Positions 18,863-28,189 of a DNA stretch of 64,000 nt are shown here, in pieces. The stretch's first letter is position 1, and each line of letters opens with the position of its first letter. The translations under genes and the position numbers were made by a program. The notes under the pieces are model-generated. The model saw nothing but the letters and a program-made list of their open reading frames with translations. It had not been told where the DNA came from and made no database searches. The DNA is from Christiangramia forsetii KT0803 (GTDB lineage: Bacteria; Bacteroidota; Bacteroidia; Flavobacteriales; Flavobacteriaceae), in assembly GCF_000060345.1 (NCBI RefSeq), contig NC_008571.1:124001-188000 (forward strand), read 5' to 3'.

Positions 18863-19861
18863 TTATAATAATAATAGGTTGCAACCTCTCACGTCACTGT
18901 TATCAAACCTTCCCAGAATTTCAATTTCATTATTTTTAATTCTTCCAAGATCCTGAGTAGCAATAAATGAGCATGAGTTGATGTTAGCAAGATCAATGAC
19001 ATTAATTCCTCCTGTTTTTCCTTCCGGTAGAAGTGATAAGGCGTCTTCGGGATCACGTATTAAGATATCCATCCAGCCAGGGCATTCAAAAACTCCCTTT
19101 CCTTTGGAATATGCCTGAGAAAGCAATTCAGTCATTCCATATTCGCTATGGATATTTTCTATTCCAAACCCCTTTTTTAAATGCTGGTGTAATTCTTCAC
19201 GTATCATTTCCTTACGACGTCCTTTCATGCCGCCGGTTTCCATGATAATGGTGTTTTTTAACCTAAACCTTCTTTTTTCAATAAGATCCAGAAGAGCAAA
19301 AGAAACACCTATTAAAAAGACTTTTTTTCCGCCTGAATCCAGCTGCTCTAGTTTTTCAGAAAGTGAATCAAGGTCATTCAAATAAAAACCACTTTCTTTA
19401 TTTCCTGAACTTTTAATAAGATGATCTGCCATATAGATTAATGAAGATCCTTGCCGTTCCAGATAAGAAGGCAATAGAGCGAGAAAAATATAATCGGAAG
19501 GCGCACCATAGAATTTGATGAAAGTTTTTAAGAAGCTTTTCTCATAAAGGCGAAGATCGGTAACATGATGTTTACTGGTTACAGTTCCGGTTGTTCCACT
19601 GCTTGAAAAAATTGTTTGAGGAGTTCTCGTATCACTTACAATATTTTTAGTTTTAAAGAATTCAATAGGCAGGAAAGGTATATCCTGAATTTTATTTACA
19701 ACTCCAGGTGTCTTATGTAAAAGTTTAGAAAACTGCCTGTAAATAGTATTATTATTGAACTGGTATTCAAATACCTCTAATGCCAGAGACTCAAACTCAT
19801 TTTTATCTGAGATCTCAAATATTCTTTTTTCGAGCATATGCAGAAGTGGAATTTTTATCAA
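18863..19861 (-). CDS. LuxE/PaaK-like acyl-protein synthetase or acyltransferase
   Basis: The 332-residue protein resembles the adenylate-forming LuxE acyl-protein synthetase group. IPFLPIEFFKTKNIVSD is followed by the nucleotide-binding loop IFSSSGTTGTVTSKH (about 100-115), then METGGMKGRR and HSEYGMTELLSQAYSKG, the conserved adenylation core. Relatives activate a carboxylate as acyl-AMP and transfer it to a carrier or cysteine; in Flavobacteriaceae the partner is unknown. An alternative start is Met 9 (position 19837). It lies 61 bp downstream of the short T9SS protein gene on the same strand and may be cotranscribed with it. Confidence 0.8.
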   Translation of the reverse strand: MIKIPLLHMLEKRIFEISDKNEFESLALEVFEYQFNNNTIYRQFSKLLHKTPGVVNKIQDIPFLPIEFFKTKNIVSDTRTPQTIFSSSGTTGTVTSKHHVTDLRLYEKSFLKTFIKFYGAPSDYIFLALLPSYLERQGSSLIYMADHLIKSSGNKESGFYLNDLDSLSEKLEQLDSGGKKVFLIGVSFALLDLIEKRRFRLKNTIIMETGGMKGRRKEMIREELHQHLKKGFGIENIHSEYGMTELLSQAYSKGKGVFECPGWMDILIRDPEDALSLLPEGKTGGINVIDLANINSCSFIATQDLGRIKNNEIEILGRFDNSDVRGCNLLLL

Positions 19862-19922: not shown

Positions 19923-20261
19923 TTATTTTACCACTAGTTTACGGGTAGCTTTCGCTTTTCCTTCTTGTATTTTTAAGATATAAATTCCGGGTGTTAATGT
20001 AGAAACATCCATTTCGCGTCCTCTTAAACGAGTTTTTTGAACAGGTTTTCCCAGTACATTGTAAATCTCAATGATCTTATCTTCATTTTTAGTAGAAGAA
20101 ATATAAACCTTTCCTCCGGTCACAGGGTTAGGATAAATAGAAAGACCATCGATAGGAATTTCAGTTCGCTGCGGAACACGATCAGATTCCTGAGCACTTA
20201 CCGGAGCGGCAATTATCAGGAAACAAATAAGAAAAAAGGAATATAGGTACTTTTTCTCCAT
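19923..20261 (-). CDS. Minimal T9SS type A sorting-domain protein
   Basis: The 112-residue product has a signal peptide (about 1-24, ending VSAQ), a short linker, and then a complete type A sorting domain (about 38-112). The domain runs from LSIYPNPVTGGKVYI through IIEIYNVLGKPVQKTRL and MDVSTLTPGIYILKI to the basic end ATRKLVVK. These domains direct cargo to the type IX secretion system and are normally removed at the surface, yet here almost no passenger remains. It may be a minimal secreted protein or a structural T9SS-related element. A perfect -7 box lies at 20283-20290. Confidence 0.85.
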   Translation of the reverse strand: MEKKYLYSFFLICFLIIAAPVSAQESDRVPQRTEIPIDGLSIYPNPVTGGKVYISSTKNEDKIIEIYNVLGKPVQKTRLRGREMDVSTLTPGIYILKIQEGKAKATRKLVVK

Positions 20262-20416: not shown

Positions 20417-22396
20417 TTAATTTACCCAGTTAAACATGTTAACATCAACGGTAGCTTCAGCATTATACGCGGCTGTTTTATTTACAATAACTCCATCTAC
20501 TGTAATCCCGGAAAGATCTGTCCTGTTATCATCGGTAATGTCAATTATAGTTTCGTAACCGGTTAGAGAGAGCCCTTCAATTTCAGCTCCAGAAGTAGAT
20601 TTAAACTGTAATGCAGTTCCACCTTTTGTAGAAACGGCCGTAAAGTTGATAATCTTAGGCATGGCATTTCTCTTATCTGCTTCAATAGCAGTAGAGAAGT
20701 TTTCTATAGTATGGCTTACATAGGTATTTTCAATCGTGCCATTCCATCCTTCCGTCCAGTCTACCGCATCATCTTCATTATTTTCCAGATATACATTTTT
20801 TGCAGATACAGTTCCGCCAAAAAATTCAACTCCGTCATCGGCACCATTCATAATGGCAATATTTTCGATAGTAGTTCCAGATCCAACGGCGTAAAGGGAA
20901 AGGCCATTATACTGTGATTCAGAATTAATCGAAGCTCCGGCATCCTTTAAGATAAGGTAGTTGATAGATCCTGAGTTGTCATCATCTGTTTCACCTCCGT
21001 AAATAATTCCGCCTACTTCAGCTGTAGCATCTACGCCAGCATCAGTAGAAGCATTACCAGCGATCACAAGACCGCCCCAGCTTCCAGCTACACCAGAAGT
21101 AGAAGACATTACCACAGGGTTGCTTTCAGTTCCCTGAATGTCTATCATCCCGCCTCTTTGTACGACGATATAAATGCTAGTAGCATCAGTTTCGGCGTCA
21201 CTTCTAGCAGTAATCTGAGTTCCAGCAGGGATTGTTAGAGTTCCACCATCTTCAATAGATACGGTGCTGCTTATTACATATTGGTTATTAGCACTAAGAG
21301 TTAAATTACCTTCAATACTAGAAGGCAATACAGAAACCTGCCCTCTATTTGAGATCCAATCGAACATAGAGACATCTACCGTTGGATCTGCAGAGTAATC
21401 CAATGTTAGATCTGCAGTAGCACCATTTAATACAATTCCTGAAAGATCTGTTCTGGTTTCATCTGCGATATCTACAGCATTGTCATATCCAGAAAGAGAG
21501 AGGCCTGTAATTGTAGCACCAGAGGTCGCTTTAAATTGCAAAGCAGTTCCTCCGGTAGTAGATACAGCAGTAAAGTTGCTTATGATCGGATTTCCATTTT
21601 CTTTATCAGCTTCGATGGCAGTAGAAAAGTTCTGAATGGTATGCAGAACATATACGTTATCCAGAGACCCATTCCATCCTTCAGTCCAGTCCACGGCATC
21701 ATCTTCGTTGTTTTCAAGATAAAGATTAGTGGCAGAAACAGTACCACCAAAGAATTCTACTCCATCATCAGCACCATTTATTAAAGCTATGTTTTGAATA
21801 GATGTTTCTGAACCTACAGCGTAAAGGGATAGTCCGTTGAACTGGGATTCAGAATTAATAGAAGCTCCAGCATCAGAAAGAACCAGGTAGTTAATAGAAC
21901 CTGAATCATCTGAAGCATCTTCACCTCCATAAATAATTCCTCCTACTTCAGCAGTAGCGTTTCTTCCTGCGGCAGTGGGAGCGTTTCCGGCGATGATCAA
22001 ACCTCCCCAGGTTCCAGCTTGTCCATTAGAACGCATAATAACAGGAGCAGATGAAGTTCCCTGAATCTCTATCTGACCTCCTTTTTGAATTACTATATAA
22101 ACATTTGTTGCATCGCTCTCATCAGTATCGGTATCGGCTATAATTTCAGTTCCAGCAGGAATCGTTAAAGTAGCTCCCGACTCAACAGATAATATTCCTG
22201 TTAAGCTATAAGTTTCTGAAGAATCAAGCGTTCTATCTTCATCTACAGAACCGTTAAGCTTGGTGTCCCCCGATGGGATTGGTGGTTCATTGTCTGATGG
22301 GTCAATAGGCTCAATATTATTATCGCTACTACAGGATGTTGCCAGCATTCCCATAGTAATTGCAGACATTAACAGTAATTTTTTTAGGTTTTTCAT
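20417..22396 (-). CDS. Surface lipoprotein with duplicated beta-helix repeat unit
   Basis: The preferred start, MKNLKKLLLMS, gives 659 residues; an upstream in-frame Met would add seven. A lipoprotein signal ends at LATSC. After a Pro/Asp/Ser-rich linker the protein consists of two near-identical units of about 310 residues. Each has TIPAGTEI/TIPAGTQI, GGLIIAGNA/GGLVIAGNA, TAEVGGIIYGG, NGADDGVEFFGGTVSA, ENNEDDAVDWTEGWNG and GTALQFK. The repeated short strands suggest a right-handed beta-helix, and the acidic NNEDDAVDW segments could bind metal. It lies 57 bp downstream of the TonB-dependent receptor on the same strand, so it is probably the surface partner of that receptor. Ligand unknown. 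Confidence 0.8.
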   Translation of the reverse strand: MKNLKKLLLMSAITMGMLATSCSSDNNIEPIDPSDNEPPIPSGDTKLNGSVDEDRTLDSSETYSLTGILSVESGATLTIPAGTEIIADTDTDESDATNVYIVIQKGGQIEIQGTSSAPVIMRSNGQAGTWGGLIIAGNAPTAAGRNATAEVGGIIYGGEDASDDSGSINYLVLSDAGASINSESQFNGLSLYAVGSETSIQNIALINGADDGVEFFGGTVSATNLYLENNEDDAVDWTEGWNGSLDNVYVLHTIQNFSTAIEADKENGNPIISNFTAVSTTGGTALQFKATSGATITGLSLSGYDNAVDIADETRTDLSGIVLNGATADLTLDYSADPTVDVSMFDWISNRGQVSVLPSSIEGNLTLSANNQYVISSTVSIEDGGTLTIPAGTQITARSDAETDATSIYIVVQRGGMIDIQGTESNPVVMSSTSGVAGSWGGLVIAGNASTDAGVDATAEVGGIIYGGETDDDNSGSINYLILKDAGASINSESQYNGLSLYAVGSGTTIENIAIMNGADDGVEFFGGTVSAKNVYLENNEDDAVDWTEGWNGTIENTYVSHTIENFSTAIEADKRNAMPKIINFTAVSTKGGTALQFKSTSGAEIEGLSLTGYETIIDITDDNRTDLSGITVDGVIVNKTAAYNAEATVDVNMFNWVN

Positions 22397-22453: not shown

Positions 22454-25252
22454 TTAAAAACTATAGTTTACTCCTAGGCTTATTACAGCTCCACGATTAT
22501 AAGATCTTACTGTTTGATTGGATTCATCTATGTTTCCTGAAATTGGTCTTATCGCCTGGAACCTTTCAATCTCCGGGTTAAGTAAATTTTGACCTCTAAA
22601 CTGAAGCTCCCAACCGTCATTAAGTTCTTTAGACATGATAAGATCCAGGGTTACAAATCCTTTTTCAATGATCTCATCGTTATATTGAATATCAATCTGG
22701 TCCAGTCTCTGACTTTCAGGGTTTCCTAAAGCAAAAATTTTATCTGAAGCGTAAGCTCCTACAAGCGTTGCCTGGAAAGGTTTTTCAGTTTCTGTTGAAA
22801 CATTTACTGAAGCATTGAAGATCCAGTCTGAAGCTCCCTGAAGTCCTATTTCATCTTTCCTATTATAGCGGAAGGTTCTAATAAACTTCCCTGCATCGTC
22901 ATATACATCCTTAAGATCCTGAGAATGCCACATTCTAGTCACATTCCCTGATACTGAGAGGTCAAGACCTGCTTCGTTTTTATTTTCGATCACATCCATT
23001 CTGGCTTCTAGCTCCAATCCATAAATGTTAGCTTCTTCTCCTGCATTGAAATAGGAGAATACAGGAGCAGATCCCCTCTCTCTGGCTTTGTTGATGGGAT
23101 TATCAATTTTCTTATAGAATCCGGTTAATGAAATCAATTCTCCGGAGCTTGGGAAAATTTCATATTTAAGATCCAGGTTCGTATTTGTGGAAGCTTCCAG
23201 GTCTGGGTTACCCCTTGTAACCAGGCCTGTTTGGGAAACATATTCAAAAGGTGCAATTTCCTTAAATTCAGGAAAAGTAATCGTTCTACTTGCTGCCAGT
23301 CTAATGTTAGAATCTTTGCTAGGAGAGAATCTAAAATTGATACTTGGATAAATATTGTCGTATGATTTATACACGAAATTTGGAAGATTTGATGGGTAGT
23401 TGTTCACATCAAATATTACATTGATATCATCTTGTTGAATCCTAGCGCCAAGGTTTACATTCCATTTTGTATTCCCATAGTTGAAAAAAGTAAAACCCGC
23501 AATAGATTCCAGACTACCTTCGTAGATATCAGGGTTAAGTACATTAAAAGCAAGAGCTCCTGAGTTGAAGTTTTCAGTAGTGAATATCCCGCTAAGATTA
23601 TCAATAGAAGTAGGGTTTATAGTATTATAATCTCTTTCTTCGGTTCCAAAGAATCGAGAATAGAAATCCCTTTGCTTATTACGATAGTTCCCTCCAATTT
23701 TTACGAATAACTTCTTTTCAGTTTCATCCTCCTGAATAAAATTATATTGATTTTCTATTAATCCATTGAATTCGATATCATCAATCTGCTGCACAGATTT
23801 TCTTTGCTGATAAGCGTTTGTTTCACCAAGTAGAATTGGCTTTGTAGGATGAATGTTCACTTCGTTTCTAATACGGTTAGGCTCATCGGCATCTACCATA
23901 TTATAACCTGCAGCCCATTCAAGTTCATTTTTGCCATCCCATAGTTCATGGAAACCATGCAGCTGGTTTACCCATAACCTTGTTTGTTTGGTATTCTGGT
24001 CACGAACAAACTGGTTGAAACCATCTCCTCGATCACTTTCCTCAAAAACAACGCCTTCACCGTTTCTTCCTCCTTCAAAAACTTCATCTGAGACTTTATT
24101 GATGAATAAGCTGGTTGCTTTAATCCTGTTATTATCGTTTATCTCATAACCCAGATCTAAGAGAGCCGTGTTATTATCGGTCTTTTTGTAATTGGTAGCA
24201 TCGGTAAAACCATCTTCAAAATCGTTGTTACGATAGTTAGCGAAAGTTCCTTCATTATATTCAAAGGAAGAAGAATTTGAAGCGGTAAGTAAAATTCTGA
24301 AATCTCCAAATTCTTTACCGGCAGTAAGCGCATACCTCCTATTAATTGGAAGAACTGCTTCTCCCGGATCCCAATCCTGATTATTTAAAGAAAATCGTGT
24401 GGGGATGGCCTGATCGTAAAACCCGAAATAAACATCTTCCTGATTTGGAGAAACTTTAAAATCGCTAAACTGACCAATTGCGTTGGTGTTAGCGCCAAAT
24501 CTTACTCCAAGATCCAGTTCACTTTTCCCTCTAAGTTCTCGGGAGGTGATATCTATATTTCCTGAAGCCTGATCTGCTGAATTTTCAGATGAATAGTTCT
24601 TACTGATCCCTATATTCTGAATAACCCTTGTAGGGAATAATCCAAGGTCGATATTCTTACGTTCTACATCGTCTGAAGGAATTGGAAGTCCGTTTAAGGT
24701 AGTATATAAATAACGGTCACCTAAACCTCTAACAAAAATATCTCCGGAAGCTTCACTACTTGTAACTCCAGAAATCTTTGTAGTTGCTGTCGCGGCATCG
24801 GATACTCCTAATTTGGCTAATTCCTGAGCTCCGATGCTTTCTTTTATATCCACAGAGTTTTTCTGATCAATTAACAGGGCTACTTCAGAATCCCTTCGCA
24901 AAACAGTAGTGATTACAACTTCATCCAAAGCAGCTGCACTGGAACCAAGATCCGTATTTACTTCGGTTACTTTTCCGGCTTCAACAACTACAGCTGGTAC
25001 TTCTAATGTTTCATATCCTATAAAGCTGAATACAAGTGTATAGGTTCCGGGCTGTAACTTATCTAATAAATAAAGACCATCATAATCTGATGTGGTGCCC
25101 TTGGTAGATCCTTTTATTAATACGTTTGCAAACGGGAGAGGTTCTCCGCTCATTTCGCGGTCAGAAAGTTTTCCGGCGATAGATCCGGTGGTGTCCTGAG
25201 CCTGAATTACACTCACAATAAGTAGGAATGTTAGTAATAAAAAATTTTTCAT
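22454..25252 (-). CDS. TonB-dependent outer-membrane receptor
   Basis: The 932-residue protein has a signal peptide ending SVIQAQ (about residue 19). A CarboxypepD_reg-like domain follows (about 22-105; IAGKLSDREMSGEPLPFANVLIKG), then a plug domain (about 125-245; SVDIKESIGAQELAKLG, DIFVRGLGDRYLYTTLNGLPIPSDD). The rest is a 22-strand-type barrel ending in ISLGVNYSF, with an aromatic last residue. It takes up a ligand using TonB energy. It lacks a SusD gene; the neighbour downstream is a beta-helix lipoprotein instead. Divergently upstream lie PhoB/PhoR-like genes, with a run of 11-bp-spaced TGTTA elements between. I infer a role in uptake of phosphate-containing compounds; the sequence alone does not show the ligand. 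Confidence 0.92.
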   Translation of the reverse strand: MKNFLLLTFLLIVSVIQAQDTTGSIAGKLSDREMSGEPLPFANVLIKGSTKGTTSDYDGLYLLDKLQPGTYTLVFSFIGYETLEVPAVVVEAGKVTEVNTDLGSSAAALDEVVITTVLRRDSEVALLIDQKNSVDIKESIGAQELAKLGVSDAATATTKISGVTSSEASGDIFVRGLGDRYLYTTLNGLPIPSDDVERKNIDLGLFPTRVIQNIGISKNYSSENSADQASGNIDITSRELRGKSELDLGVRFGANTNAIGQFSDFKVSPNQEDVYFGFYDQAIPTRFSLNNQDWDPGEAVLPINRRYALTAGKEFGDFRILLTASNSSSFEYNEGTFANYRNNDFEDGFTDATNYKKTDNNTALLDLGYEINDNNRIKATSLFINKVSDEVFEGGRNGEGVVFEESDRGDGFNQFVRDQNTKQTRLWVNQLHGFHELWDGKNELEWAAGYNMVDADEPNRIRNEVNIHPTKPILLGETNAYQQRKSVQQIDDIEFNGLIENQYNFIQEDETEKKLFVKIGGNYRNKQRDFYSRFFGTEERDYNTINPTSIDNLSGIFTTENFNSGALAFNVLNPDIYEGSLESIAGFTFFNYGNTKWNVNLGARIQQDDINVIFDVNNYPSNLPNFVYKSYDNIYPSINFRFSPSKDSNIRLAASRTITFPEFKEIAPFEYVSQTGLVTRGNPDLEASTNTNLDLKYEIFPSSGELISLTGFYKKIDNPINKARERGSAPVFSYFNAGEEANIYGLELEARMDVIENKNEAGLDLSVSGNVTRMWHSQDLKDVYDDAGKFIRTFRYNRKDEIGLQGASDWIFNASVNVSTETEKPFQATLVGAYASDKIFALGNPESQRLDQIDIQYNDEIIEKGFVTLDLIMSKELNDGWELQFRGQNLLNPEIERFQAIRPISGNIDESNQTVRSYNRGAVISLGVNYSF

Positions 25253-25277
25253 TTTGCTTTGCTATAATATCTCGCTG

Positions 25278-25285
25278 CAAATTAA
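25278..25285 (-). promoter_or_regulatory. Possible -7 element for the TonB-dependent receptor gene
   Basis: TTAATTTG on the minus strand matches 7 of 8 of TAnnTTTG. The 11-bp repeat array ends 20 bp upstream and no -33 TTG is present. That is what an activator-dependent promoter would look like. Confidence 0.4.
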
Positions 25286-25305: not shown

Positions 25306-25366
25306 TGTTATCTAAGGATTAATGGTTTGTCATTAAAGGGTTAGTTTAATGTTACTAATGTGTTAA
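25306..25366. promoter_or_regulatory. Pho-box-like array: six hexamers at exact 11-bp spacing
   Basis: On the plus strand the hexamers at 25306, 25317, 25328, 25339, 25350 and 25361 read TGTTAT, GATTAA, TGTCAT, GGTTAG, TGTTAC and TGTTAA. Read on the other strand, the best copies are TTAACA, GTAACA and ATGACA. Direct repeats at 11 bp are the known operator design of PhoB (CTGTCAT) and Bacillus PhoP (TTAACA). The array lies between the divergent receptor gene and the response-regulator gene, so the regulator is the obvious candidate to bind it. Confidence 0.65.
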
Positions 25367-25427: not shown

Positions 25428-26111
25428 ATGAAGAAAAAAGACATTCAGATTTTATTAGTTGATGATGAGCCGGATATCCTGGAAATAGTGGGTTATAACC
25501 TTTCTTCAGAAGGTTATAGTGTTATTACTGCAGATAATGGTGCAGATGCTGTGAAAATTGCTAAGAAAAAGAAACCACATCTTATAATCCTTGATGTGAT
25601 GATGCCAGAGATGGATGGGATTGAAGCTTGTGAACAGATTAGAAAAATGCCAGATATGGAGGGCACTATTATTACCTTTCTTACTGCGCGTGGTGAAGAT
25701 TATTCCCAAATGGCAGGATTTGATGCCGGAGCCGATGACTACATTACAAAACCTATTAAGCCAAAAGTTTTGGTTAGTAAGGTGAAAGCTCTATTAAGAA
25801 GGTATCGGGAAGAAGACACGTCATCTAATATTGTGAAATTAGGTGATATTACCATTAATCGTGAAGAATATAAGATCGTGCAAAATGGGAATGAGATGGC
25901 GCTGCCTCGCAAAGAATTTGAGCTGCTCTCATTATTGGCTTCAAAACCCGGAAAGGTTTTCAAAAGAGAAGATATTCTTGATAATGTATGGGGGAATGAT
26001 ATTGTAGTAGGAGGCAGGACTATAGATGTTCATATTAGAAAACTCCGGGAAAAAATTGGCGACGATAAAATCAAAACTATCAAGGGAGTTGGTTATAAGT
26101 TTGTTGTTTAA
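25428..26111 (+). CDS. OmpR/PhoB-family response regulator (PhoB-like)
   Basis: The 227-residue protein has a receiver domain (about 5-120) with the acidic pair D12/D13, phospho-acceptor D56 in ILDVMMP, and K108 in ITKP. A winged-helix DNA-binding domain follows (about 133-227), with LPRKEFELLSLLASKPGKVFKR and VVGGRTIDVHIRKLREKIGDD ending GVGYKFVV. This is the PhoB/OmpR class. The stop codon shares its last base with the kinase ATG (TAATG), so the two are cotranslated. The adjacent 11-bp repeats support a PhoB-like identity. Targets other than the divergent receptor operon and possibly itself are not visible. Confidence 0.9.
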   Translation: MKKKDIQILLVDDEPDILEIVGYNLSSEGYSVITADNGADAVKIAKKKKPHLIILDVMMPEMDGIEACEQIRKMPDMEGTIITFLTARGEDYSQMAGFDAGADDYITKPIKPKVLVSKVKALLRRYREEDTSSNIVKLGDITINREEYKIVQNGNEMALPRKEFELLSLLASKPGKVFKREDILDNVWGNDIVVGGRTIDVHIRKLREKIGDDKIKTIKGVGYKFVV

Positions 26112-27190
26112 TGGCACAAAAATTCAAACGTTCATATAGATTTGCTCTTAGAACTGCCCTTTACATAAGTGTTTTTCTAAGTGTGATCATGGGGCTTTTT
26201 GCTTTTTTTGAGGTTCAATCTATATGGGTTTCACTATTTATTTTTGCCATTTTCTGTTACTTTTTTTCTTTTTTAATTATTCAATATAGAGTAGAGCGTT
26301 TTATTTATAGAAGAATAAAGAAGGTGTATGATAATGTCTCTTTGCTGGATTCAAAAACACTGAGTCCCAATCAAATCACTACAGATATGTCCAGTCTTAC
26401 CCGTGAGGTAAAGAAATTTGCTGAAGACAAAAAACTGGAGATTGAAACATTAAAGGTGAGGGAAGGATATCGAAAGGAGTTTATGGGAAATGTTTCTCAT
26501 GAGTTAAAAACACCCTTGTTCACTGTTCAGGGATATATTCTCACACTCCTGGATGGCGCTCATAAAGATAAAGTTATCAGAAAAAAATATTTAGCGAGAG
26601 CTAATAGAGGTGTTGAGAGACTTATTTATATTGTAAAAGACCTTGATATGATCACCAAACTTGAAACTGGCGATCTTCATTTGCGTTATGAAACTTTTGA
26701 TATTGTAGAGTTAATTCAGGCTTCATTTGATCTTCTTGAAATGAAAGCAGCTAAAAAGGAAATTACGCTAACTTTTGATTTTGATTATGAAGAGCCAATC
26801 TATGTGAGAGCCGATAGGGAAAGAATTCAGCAGGTACTTACCAATCTTATTGTTAATTCGGTTAAATATGGTAAGAAAGGCGGGACTACGGAGATTAGTA
26901 TCGAAAATCTAATTAAAAATAAAGTGATAGTGAGGTGTACCGATAATGGTGAAGGAATTGAGAATGAAAACATTCCTCGTTTATTCGAACGTTTCTATCG
27001 CGTTGATAAAAGCGGTTCCCGTAAAGAAGGAGGCTCTGGCCTTGGACTCTCCATTGTAAAACATATCCTTGAAGCTCATAAAGAGAAAATTTATGTTGAA
27101 AGTGTCTTTGGGGTTGGAAGCGAATTTTCATTCACGCTCGAAAAAAGAAAAAAGATCCCTGAAGACAGTGTGATTCCCGAAATCACTTAA
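26111..27190 (+). CDS. Sensor histidine kinase (PhoR-like partner)
   Basis: The 359-residue kinase has two N-terminal membrane helices (about 15-33 and 39-58) with almost no periplasmic loop. A HisKA domain follows with phospho-acceptor His 130 in VSHELKTPLFTVQGY, then the HATPase domain with LTNLIVNSVKYGKKG (N box), CTDNGEGIENENIPRLFERFYRV (G1/F) and GGSGLGLSIVKHIL (G2). The short loop argues against direct sensing of a periplasmic ligand and, as in PhoR, sensing may go through a transporter or the membrane. No PAS domain is visible. Its last 63 bp are antisense to the end of the convergent glycosyltransferase gene. Confidence 0.9.
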   Translation: MAQKFKRSYRFALRTALYISVFLSVIMGLFAFFEVQSIWVSLFIFAIFCYFFSFLIIQYRVERFIYRRIKKVYDNVSLLDSKTLSPNQITTDMSSLTREVKKFAEDKKLEIETLKVREGYRKEFMGNVSHELKTPLFTVQGYILTLLDGAHKDKVIRKKYLARANRGVERLIYIVKDLDMITKLETGDLHLRYETFDIVELIQASFDLLEMKAAKKEITLTFDFDYEEPIYVRADRERIQQVLTNLIVNSVKYGKKGGTTEISIENLIKNKVIVRCTDNGEGIENENIPRLFERFYRVDKSGSRKEGGSGLGLSIVKHILEAHKEKIYVESVFGVGSEFSFTLEKRKKIPEDSVIPEIT

Positions 27191-28189
27191 ACCTTTATAA
27201 TCTTCAATCCTTTTTAACTGAGTCAAATCAAATTTTTCCTGTTTGCAAAAAGGAGCAATCCCTAGTTTTTCAAGTCTTTTTGCCAGATATTCCTGTTCTT
27301 TTTGCCCCGGGGTAGGAATAAAAAATGCCTTTTTATGCAATTTAGCAAGATCCATCAGGGTAGTATAACCAGATCTGGAAATAATATATTTACTTGAATT
27401 TATAGCTTCTTCAAGAGCTTTTCCGTAGAGATAATTCTTGATTTCAATAGTTGTATCCGGTAAATTTAATTTCTCTTCTGAAATTACTCCGCGAATAAAA
27501 AGTATTCGGGCTTCATATTTTTTGAGTTTTTTCAGTAAAATAGATTCAAGGATGCTTCGCTGAGGTTCAGGACCGCTTAACAATACTAGAAAATCATATA
27601 ATTCAGGAGTTCTTCTTTTTTCCAGTCTGCTTAGTAGGCCAATATATTTTACATTCTTTGGCTTCATTTTGGGATGTCCTAAAATACCACTTAGGTTGCT
27701 TTCTTTCTCAACATCCGGTACCCAGCATTGATCAAATTTGCCAATATATTGCTGATGTATATAGCTGCTTAAAAACGAAGTGCTTCCACTAAGAACATTC
27801 AGCTGATGGGTGATAAATACATTTTTTTTCAGCTTTTTACTTCTTACACCAAAACGATTATCTGAAATAATCCCCTGAATATTATAGCTTTCAACTATTT
27901 TGCTGGTGAGTTCGTTTTCCTCTCTTATAGCCTTCAGGATCTTTGGGCTATCCTTGATCATTTTCCATTTAAGATATCTTCCATTTTTAGAGTACTGAAT
28001 ATTATAGGAAGGAAGTTCAATATGATTTAAACCTGGAAATTCCTTTTTTAAAAGTTCAAGAGCCTGCCCGTCTGAAGCTATAATGGGTTCAAAATCATTT
28101 AGCTGAAGCTCTTTTATTATTGGAATACACCGGGTAGCATGACCTAATCCCCAATTGAGTATGGCCACCAATATTCTCTTCTTTGACAT
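27128..28189 (-). CDS. GT-B-fold glycosyltransferase (TIGR00661/MJ1255-like)
   Basis: The 353-residue protein starts MSKKRILVAILNWGLGHATRCI, the glycine-rich start of GT-B glycosyltransferases related to MurG and UDP-sugar transferases. The C-terminal half has the donor-site pattern SSKYIISRSGYTTLMDLAKL followed by TPGQKEQEYLAKRLEKLG. Acceptor and donor are unknown. Two oddities: a perfect -7 box lies only 4 bp upstream of the ATG, which suggests a leaderless or very short-leader mRNA, and the 3' end overlaps the PhoR-like kinase gene by 63 bp in antisense. Confidence 0.83.
   Translation of the reverse strand: MSKKRILVAILNWGLGHATRCIPIIKELQLNDFEPIIASDGQALELLKKEFPGLNHIELPSYNIQYSKNGRYLKWKMIKDSPKILKAIREENELTSKIVESYNIQGIISDNRFGVRSKKLKKNVFITHQLNVLSGSTSFLSSYIHQQYIGKFDQCWVPDVEKESNLSGILGHPKMKPKNVKYIGLLSRLEKRRTPELYDFLVLLSGPEPQRSILESILLKKLKKYEARILFIRGVISEEKLNLPDTTIEIKNYLYGKALEEAINSSKYIISRSGYTTLMDLAKLHKKAFFIPTPGQKEQEYLAKRLEKLGIAPFCKQEKFDLTQLKRIEDYKGLSDFGNHTVFRDLFSFFERE

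Follow-up and report, generated by a model that had tools for sequence, protein, structure and literature searches.

Phased TGTTA-type boxes beside a PhoB-type regulator gene of Christiangramia forsetii, a probable Pho box of the Bacteroidia

Bacteroidia have a major part in recycling organic matter, be it in the sea, in soil or in the gut. Two phosphate operators from elsewhere provide the reference for the array described here: the Pho box of E. coli, with 11-bp direct repeats in place of the upstream promoter element and TGTCA on the coding strand, and the PhoP box of Bacillus subtilis, with TTAACA repeats on an 11-bp step.

Closer to the present locus is the phoBR cluster of F. johnsoniae, where phosphate (Pi) depletion is reported to raise a receptor gene by 8.02 and the next lipoprotein gene by 9.91 log2 units, the glycosyltransferase gene by 5.42 and phoB by 3.06, with the changes of PhoR (0.76) and of the OprP gene (-1.3) not significant (PMC8115612). 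The main text of that paper gives no operator, and the term 'pho box' does not occur in it. In R. anatipestifer, DAP-seq of PhoP gave 583 peaks and a motif, likened to that of ArcA, in which TTTAACA is most conserved; EMSA showed PhoP binding at the moxR promoter as well as at its own, with unphosphorylated PhoP binding about as well as phosphorylated PhoP at two promoters (PMC9603813, 2022). According to the same account, moxR is down by 2.03 log2 units in the phoP mutant and 50 direct targets are changed, 34 up and 16 down. In a phoPR double mutant pstS is up 8-fold (PMC5399024). Pho boxes have also been predicted in the plcP clusters of marine bacteria, with flavobacteria among the groups studied (PMC4796936). 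A preliminary description of the array had held that no well-characterised Pho box is known for marine Flavobacteriaceae; with the TTTAACA motif of R. anatipestifer PhoP in print (PMC9603813), that statement is only partly true. The letters of the box are partly published. Apart from the R. anatipestifer motif, the published accounts consulted contain no promoter rule for the phosphate response of Bacteroidetes, and none with 11-bp phasing.

The array and its neighbouring genes

The window, which is the whole 64,000-nucleotide stretch of C. forsetii KT0803 DNA that was analysed, contains the following features around the array.

20417-22396, leftwards: protein after the receptor, with no family in Pfam or NCBIfam
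22454-25252, leftwards: TonB-dependent receptor (PF00593, PF07715, PF13715; domain match to Fjoh_0545), probable main target of the array
25277-25281, leftwards: GCAAA, which is TTTGC on the coding strand, core of the receptor -7 element (conservation, fixed distance to the boxes)
25306-25366, leftwards: array of six TGTTA-type boxes (direct reading, shuffles, conserved phase)
25428-26111, rightwards: PhoB/OmpR-type response regulator (PF00072, PF00486), probable array-binding protein
26111-27190, rightwards: PhoR-type histidine kinase (PF00512, PF02518)
27128-28189, leftwards: glycosyltransferase (PF04101, PF13528), convergent with the kinase gene

The six hexamers read TGTTAT (25306), GATTAA (25317), TGTCAT (25328), GGTTAG (25339), TGTTAC (25350) and TGTTAA (25361), letter for letter as in the preliminary description, with the TGTTA-type words on the rightwards strand and TAACA-type words on the coding strand of the receptor. 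Scored as six TGTTA words on an 11-bp step, the array reaches 26 of 30, and no other step between 7 and 15 bp exceeds 20 within the 175-bp spacer that holds it. None of 20,000 dinucleotide shuffles of the spacer scored 26 (maximum 23), and 25306 is the single place in the 64-kb window, on either strand, that scores at least 26. The claim of an 11-bp array therefore stands, and the boxes are direct repeats on the step that PhoB- and PhoP-type Pho boxes have. An origin by chance in A+T-rich DNA between genes, or by decay of a tandem repeat, would agree with the A+T-richness of the spacer, with the presence of exact TGTTA in just three of the six words, and with the five exact bare TGTTA pairs found in this genome; such an origin is contradicted by the shuffles and by the fixed-phase conservation at orthologous and non-orthologous promoters described below, and is hardly credible.

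The flanking genes are as first claimed, with the TonB receptor transcribed leftwards and the PhoB/OmpR-type regulator and histidine kinase rightwards. The best NCBIfam models for the regulator are TIGR02154 (PhoB) and NF053854 (Bacteroides PhoB), and because both score below their cut-offs (220.1 against 296.2 bits and 210.8 against 270 bits, respectively) it is named 'PhoB-type'. The kinase is similarly below the cut-offs of the NCBIfam PnpS and PhoR models, and these scores are a counterpoint to reading the array as a Pho box. The genome, 3.80 Mb in one contig, has a single copy of the regulator, the next relative being 35% identical, and the closest named regulator locus is that of Christiangramia oceanisediminis (92% over the regulator).

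By gene order and Pfam families the region matches Fjoh_0541-0549 of F. johnsoniae, which includes a PF04101 glycosyltransferase, PhoR, PhoB, a TonB receptor with PF13715 and a protein without a family (PMC8115612). The glycosyltransferase of the window has the same Pfam family as Fjoh_0541, and the family-less protein, judging from its position, is presumably the counterpart of the 'FII' lipoprotein Fjoh_0546; a relative of it (31% over 378 aa) sits after a box in locus L317. The two clusters differ in the OprP gene, which lies between PhoR and the glycosyltransferase in F. johnsoniae, whereas the OprP-like gene of the window genome is beside a PiT gene at about 3.35 Mb. Beyond the receptor and the family-less protein, the leftwards strand of the window also carries a gene for a 112-aa protein that is mostly a type IX secretion sorting domain (19923-20261; PF18962) and, past the receptor operon, a LuxE-family acyl-protein synthetase-like gene (18863-19861; PF04443).

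Conservation at orthologous regulator loci

Eighty regulator loci were retained. The Flavobacteriaceae set of 48 sequences consists of the window and 47 of the 48 loci L011-L058, with L057 dropped as its upstream sequence is missing; the 32 other loci come from Bacteroidota at a greater distance and from a few flavobacterial genomes that are unplaced. Over the 250 bp that precede the regulator gene, TGTTA words with at most one mismatch were counted and compared with shuffles. The 48 Flavobacteriaceae sequences contain 106 pairs at 11 bp against 18.9 in shuffles (z 21.7), with further peaks at the longer spacings of 22, 33 and 44 bp (z 10.4, 10.3 and 8.5) and an extra one at 19 bp (z 6.2). The 32 other loci have 23 pairs at 11 bp against 5.4 (z 8.3), together with a lesser peak at 21 bp (z 4.3). 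Some loci, such as L027, L033, L044 and L055, have no array in the alignment.

A register-finding alignment shows a conserved GCAAA, present in 21 of the 27 divergent-receptor promoters, to which the distance of the boxes is constant. Counted from GCAAA in these 27 promoters, NGTTA starts at +29 in 19, at +73 in 18, at +40 in 12, at +62 in 11, at +92 in 11 and at +51 in none, with an expected count of at most 0.08 at each offset. The phasing of the hexamers, for which conservation at orthologous loci had been set as a check, is thus preserved both as a spacing and as fixed offsets from GCAAA, and the -7 element assigned to the receptor gene proves to be real and conserved, with its core GCAAA at 25277-25281. 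The units of the array are at +29, +40, +51, +62, +73 and +84 in the window, those at +51 and +84 being without conservation, and the TGTTA starts fall 18+11k bases from GCAA (TTGC on the coding strand) of the -7 element. The boxes accordingly have the fixed placement by the core promoter, replacing the upstream element, that is seen in PhoB- and PhoP-type Pho boxes. With NGTTA at +29/+40 and +62/+73 and none at +51, the counts support a conserved core of two dimer sites in the receptor promoter, separated by a weak position; of the 'up to three dimer sites' proposed earlier, two strong dimers remain and three equal ones do not.

A second pair of words is seen on the phoB side of the spacer (L022-L049), where 15 of the 24 loci with GCAAA in register have two TTAA words, at +10 and +21 when counted from the last conserved box; the two are 11 bp apart, with a reading direction opposite to that of the array. 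This inverted pair is perhaps phoB's own box, and it partly accounts for the 19-bp peak; the window does not have it. The pair would suit a reading in which the regulator binds but serves mainly in autoregulation or repression of phoB, the receptor not being activated, as would the rise of pstS in the R. anatipestifer double mutant (PMC5399024) and the 34 of 50 changed direct targets that go up in its phoP mutant (PMC9603813). Against it are the phasing of the boxes to the receptor -7 core, the absence of the inverted pair from the window, and the increase of the counterpart receptor of F. johnsoniae by 8 log2 units in phosphate depletion (PMC8115612), and we consider this reading very unlikely.

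The phased promoter before other genes

The whole C. forsetii genome contains a single exact match to the pattern GCAA-N25-TGTTA-N6-TGTTA and none at one mismatch. The exact match precedes a gene for a PiT-family phosphate transporter (PF01384), whose neighbours are an OprO/P-type porin (PF07396) and a GDPD phosphodiesterase gene (PF03009). In this genome the OprP-like gene has a box pair of its own, which lies 47 bases from the gene start and contains a single mismatch; at +18, ACAA replaces GCAA. There are two PiT copies (L142:1937-4180, leftwards, and L203:1179-3449, rightwards), which are 65% identical over 473 aa; a box was looked for at the second copy (246678) and none was found, and the promoter rule indicates which of the two is likely phosphate-regulated.

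At up to two mismatches the same genome yields 45 matches, 44 of them at two, against 30 for the reversed control, and weak sites are therefore untrustworthy. All 45 were inspected: they include the PiT, receptor and moxR sites, the last (G000:C1:3570460-3570504) with two mismatches, as well as seven intergenic matches with a suitably placed reading frame and without any clear tie to phosphate; all others are within reading frames or lack a target. Bare TGTTA pairs were tried as a genome-wide signal and rejected, as 258 matches at up to one mismatch compare with 385 in the reversed control and the pair alone thus predicts no targets.

Among 60 genomes of the family, the exact pattern has 26 matches in 24 genomes against two for the reversed control. 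Judged by their coordinates, 21 of these are directly upstream of PiT; the other five comprise two in the receptor/phoB spacer, one near a related receptor, one intergenic and one inside a reading frame. One exact family-level site (L218) is near a gene for a 167-aa small secreted-looking protein (starting MKKNILVVALIFTTVLSAQ), on the far side of that protein, and a target in the usual orientation is absent there.

PiT and OprP promoters were also sampled by gene rather than by motif, taking the best 30 loci of each from the 60 genomes (58 with a PiT match, 41 with an OprP match). A perfect pair lies within 220 bp at 16 of the 30 PiT loci, a pair with at most one mismatch at 20, and a pair phased to GCAA at 14; the corresponding counts for the 30 OprP loci are 4, 24 and 21, and TGTT is found at both +18 and +29 in 15 of them. 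Offsets from GCAAA peak at +29 (16 loci) and +40 (14) for PiT and at +18 (19) for OprP, and shuffles never exceed two at any offset. Promoters of moxR have NGTTA at +29 and +40 in 23 of 25 cases (L362-L391; five of 30 loci were dropped, the start not being found). The 18+11k placement is based on three gene groups with shuffle controls, and moxR is counted without one.

The PhoX family (PF05787), which served also as a control, was considered for membership of the regulon and rejected. Matches came from 30 of 120 genomes, and of the 30 loci sampled 27 have usable upstream sequence; none of the 27 promoters has a perfect pair, and counts at every offset from GCAAA are at most one, with no peak. 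L235 alone among these loci has GCAA with a one-mismatch pair at +29. As PF05787 is broad, a true PhoX subset could behave differently.

A related pattern, GCAAA-N24-TGTTA-N7-GTTA, was run on 198 genomes of the class; it has 58 matches, spread over 42 of them, whereas the control has 10. Five of the 58 have no reading frame in place and three of the other 53 are inside one; Pfam was scanned for 50 of the 53 targets, three being skipped as near duplicates. Nineteen of these 50 are phosphate transport, PhoU-like or PhoB-like genes, namely five PiT, seven DUF47 (PhoU_div), two OprO/P porins, one Na/Pi cotransporter, two PstS-like proteins (PF12849) and two PhoB-like regulators. Further targets are five TonB receptors, three MoxR, two metallophosphoesterases and one exo/endonuclease-phosphatase, and 20 of the 50 have no evident phosphate link. 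DUF47 genes sampled by family have a perfect TGTTA-N6-TGTTA within 260 bp in 13 of 22 cases (shuffled mean 0.03; eight of 30 loci were dropped, the start not being found), with the -7 phase clear in just five of the 22, at +29. Two genomes of one genus (L331 and L348) share a conserved 76-aa reading frame after a boxed promoter; one of the two was scanned and has no Pfam match.

The boxes thus recur before phosphate-acquisition genes, as in other Pho boxes. The preliminary description had expected them upstream of alkaline phosphatase, pstSCAB and phoU genes, and this holds in part: PiT, OprO/P, DUF47/PhoU-like, PstS-like and phoB-like genes have them, but alkaline phosphatase, for which PhoX was the one family sampled, has no consistent box. 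In the C. forsetii genome neither PhoU (PF01895) nor DUF47 (PF01865) was found, and there is consequently no phoU upstream region to check for boxes; PhoU has a match in 10 of the 60 family genomes and none in 50. The PhoU component of E. coli-type PstSCAB-PhoU-PhoR signalling is accordingly missing from this genome, and PstSCAB is reported as absent from plant-associated Bacteroidetes (PMC8115612). An hhalign comparison of the PiT C-terminus gave no match to PhoU or DUF47, in a test insensitive enough to leave DUF47 and PhoU unlinked as well. The route by which PhoR senses phosphate without PhoU is a question that these genomes raise.

The recurrence of the boxes also bears on which protein binds them. 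Direct repeats on an 11-bp step are a general OmpR-family site, and another response regulator of this family might bind the boxes and control both phoB and the receptor from outside. Three other regulators of the genome (L002-L004) match the present one over nearly full length with 31-35% identity, and the motif of R. anatipestifer PhoP was itself likened to that of ArcA (PMC9603813). Control from outside is nonetheless unlikely: from genus to genus the boxes keep their place next to the gene of this regulator, they precede phosphate genes, and R. anatipestifer PhoP binds such a motif in its own promoter (PMC9603813).

Proposed mechanism and comparison with known systems

The array is very probably a Pho box, the operator for the adjoining PhoB-type regulator, acting when phosphate is scarce. 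The earlier suggestion that these boxes could define a Pho box gains support from their conserved phasing and their recurrence before phosphate genes, and we infer the regulator as the binding protein, phosphate as the signal and activation as the effect. Under phosphate scarcity the kinase would phosphorylate the regulator, which would then bind as head-to-tail dimers on the 11-bp repeats, along one face of the helix. The bound dimers would adjoin a TTTGC-type -7 element without a usable -33 element and recruit RNA polymerase to the receptor promoter. Because the boxes are fixed at 18+11k from the -7 core, the regulator probably stands in for the -33 contact, and the phase would keep the dimers on the same helix face relative to the start site. 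The array is also upstream of phoB, and autoregulation is probable. Several observations sit less easily with this picture: the below-cut-off scores of regulator and kinase, the unboxed PhoX-family promoters, the 8-fold rise of pstS in the R. anatipestifer phoPR mutant (PMC5399024), the binding of unphosphorylated PhoP there (PMC9603813), the uninduced OprP gene of the F. johnsoniae cluster (PMC8115612), the 20 class-level targets unconnected to phosphate on present evidence, and the scarcity of a clear -7 phase among DUF47 genes.

The rule 'GCAA, 18+11k bases, TGTTA' makes strong members of the regulon readable from sequence and flags new candidate phosphorus-scavenging proteins. We regard as evenly balanced a broader proposal, in which one ancestral operator (TGTTAA on an 11-bp step, with an 18+11k lock to the Bacteroidetes -7 element and an orientation opposite to that of the E. 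coli box) would control the phosphate regulon throughout the Bacteroidia; most Flavobacteriaceae being PhoU-less, PhoR would read phosphate otherwise there, and moxR-bat, among the conserved targets, would tie phosphate to the envelope or oxidative-stress machinery.

The array resembles the E. coli PhoB Pho box in its 11-bp direct repeats, in its upstream-element position and in the likeness of TGTTA to TGTCA. It departs from the strict E. coli form in that TGTTA is on the non-coding strand of its targets, the receptor, PiT and OprP genes, and in that the -7 element is of Bacteroidetes type. With the Bacillus subtilis PhoP box it has in common the letters, the 11-bp step and the coding-strand orientation, but it belongs to another phylum and promoter type, with up to six boxes in the window and a -7 phase rule. 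Pho boxes have likewise been predicted for marine heterotrophs, and the text consulted in PMC4796936 gives no flavobacterial motif. The 11-bp tandem phase, the fixed -7 distance and the PiT, OprP and DUF47 targets are not mentioned in the text consulted on R. anatipestifer PhoP (PMC9603813). The likeness to that system lies in motif and targets: its TTTAACA is the reverse complement of TGTTAAA, and moxR, which R. anatipestifer PhoP binds, is boxed in the promoters of Flavobacteriaceae.
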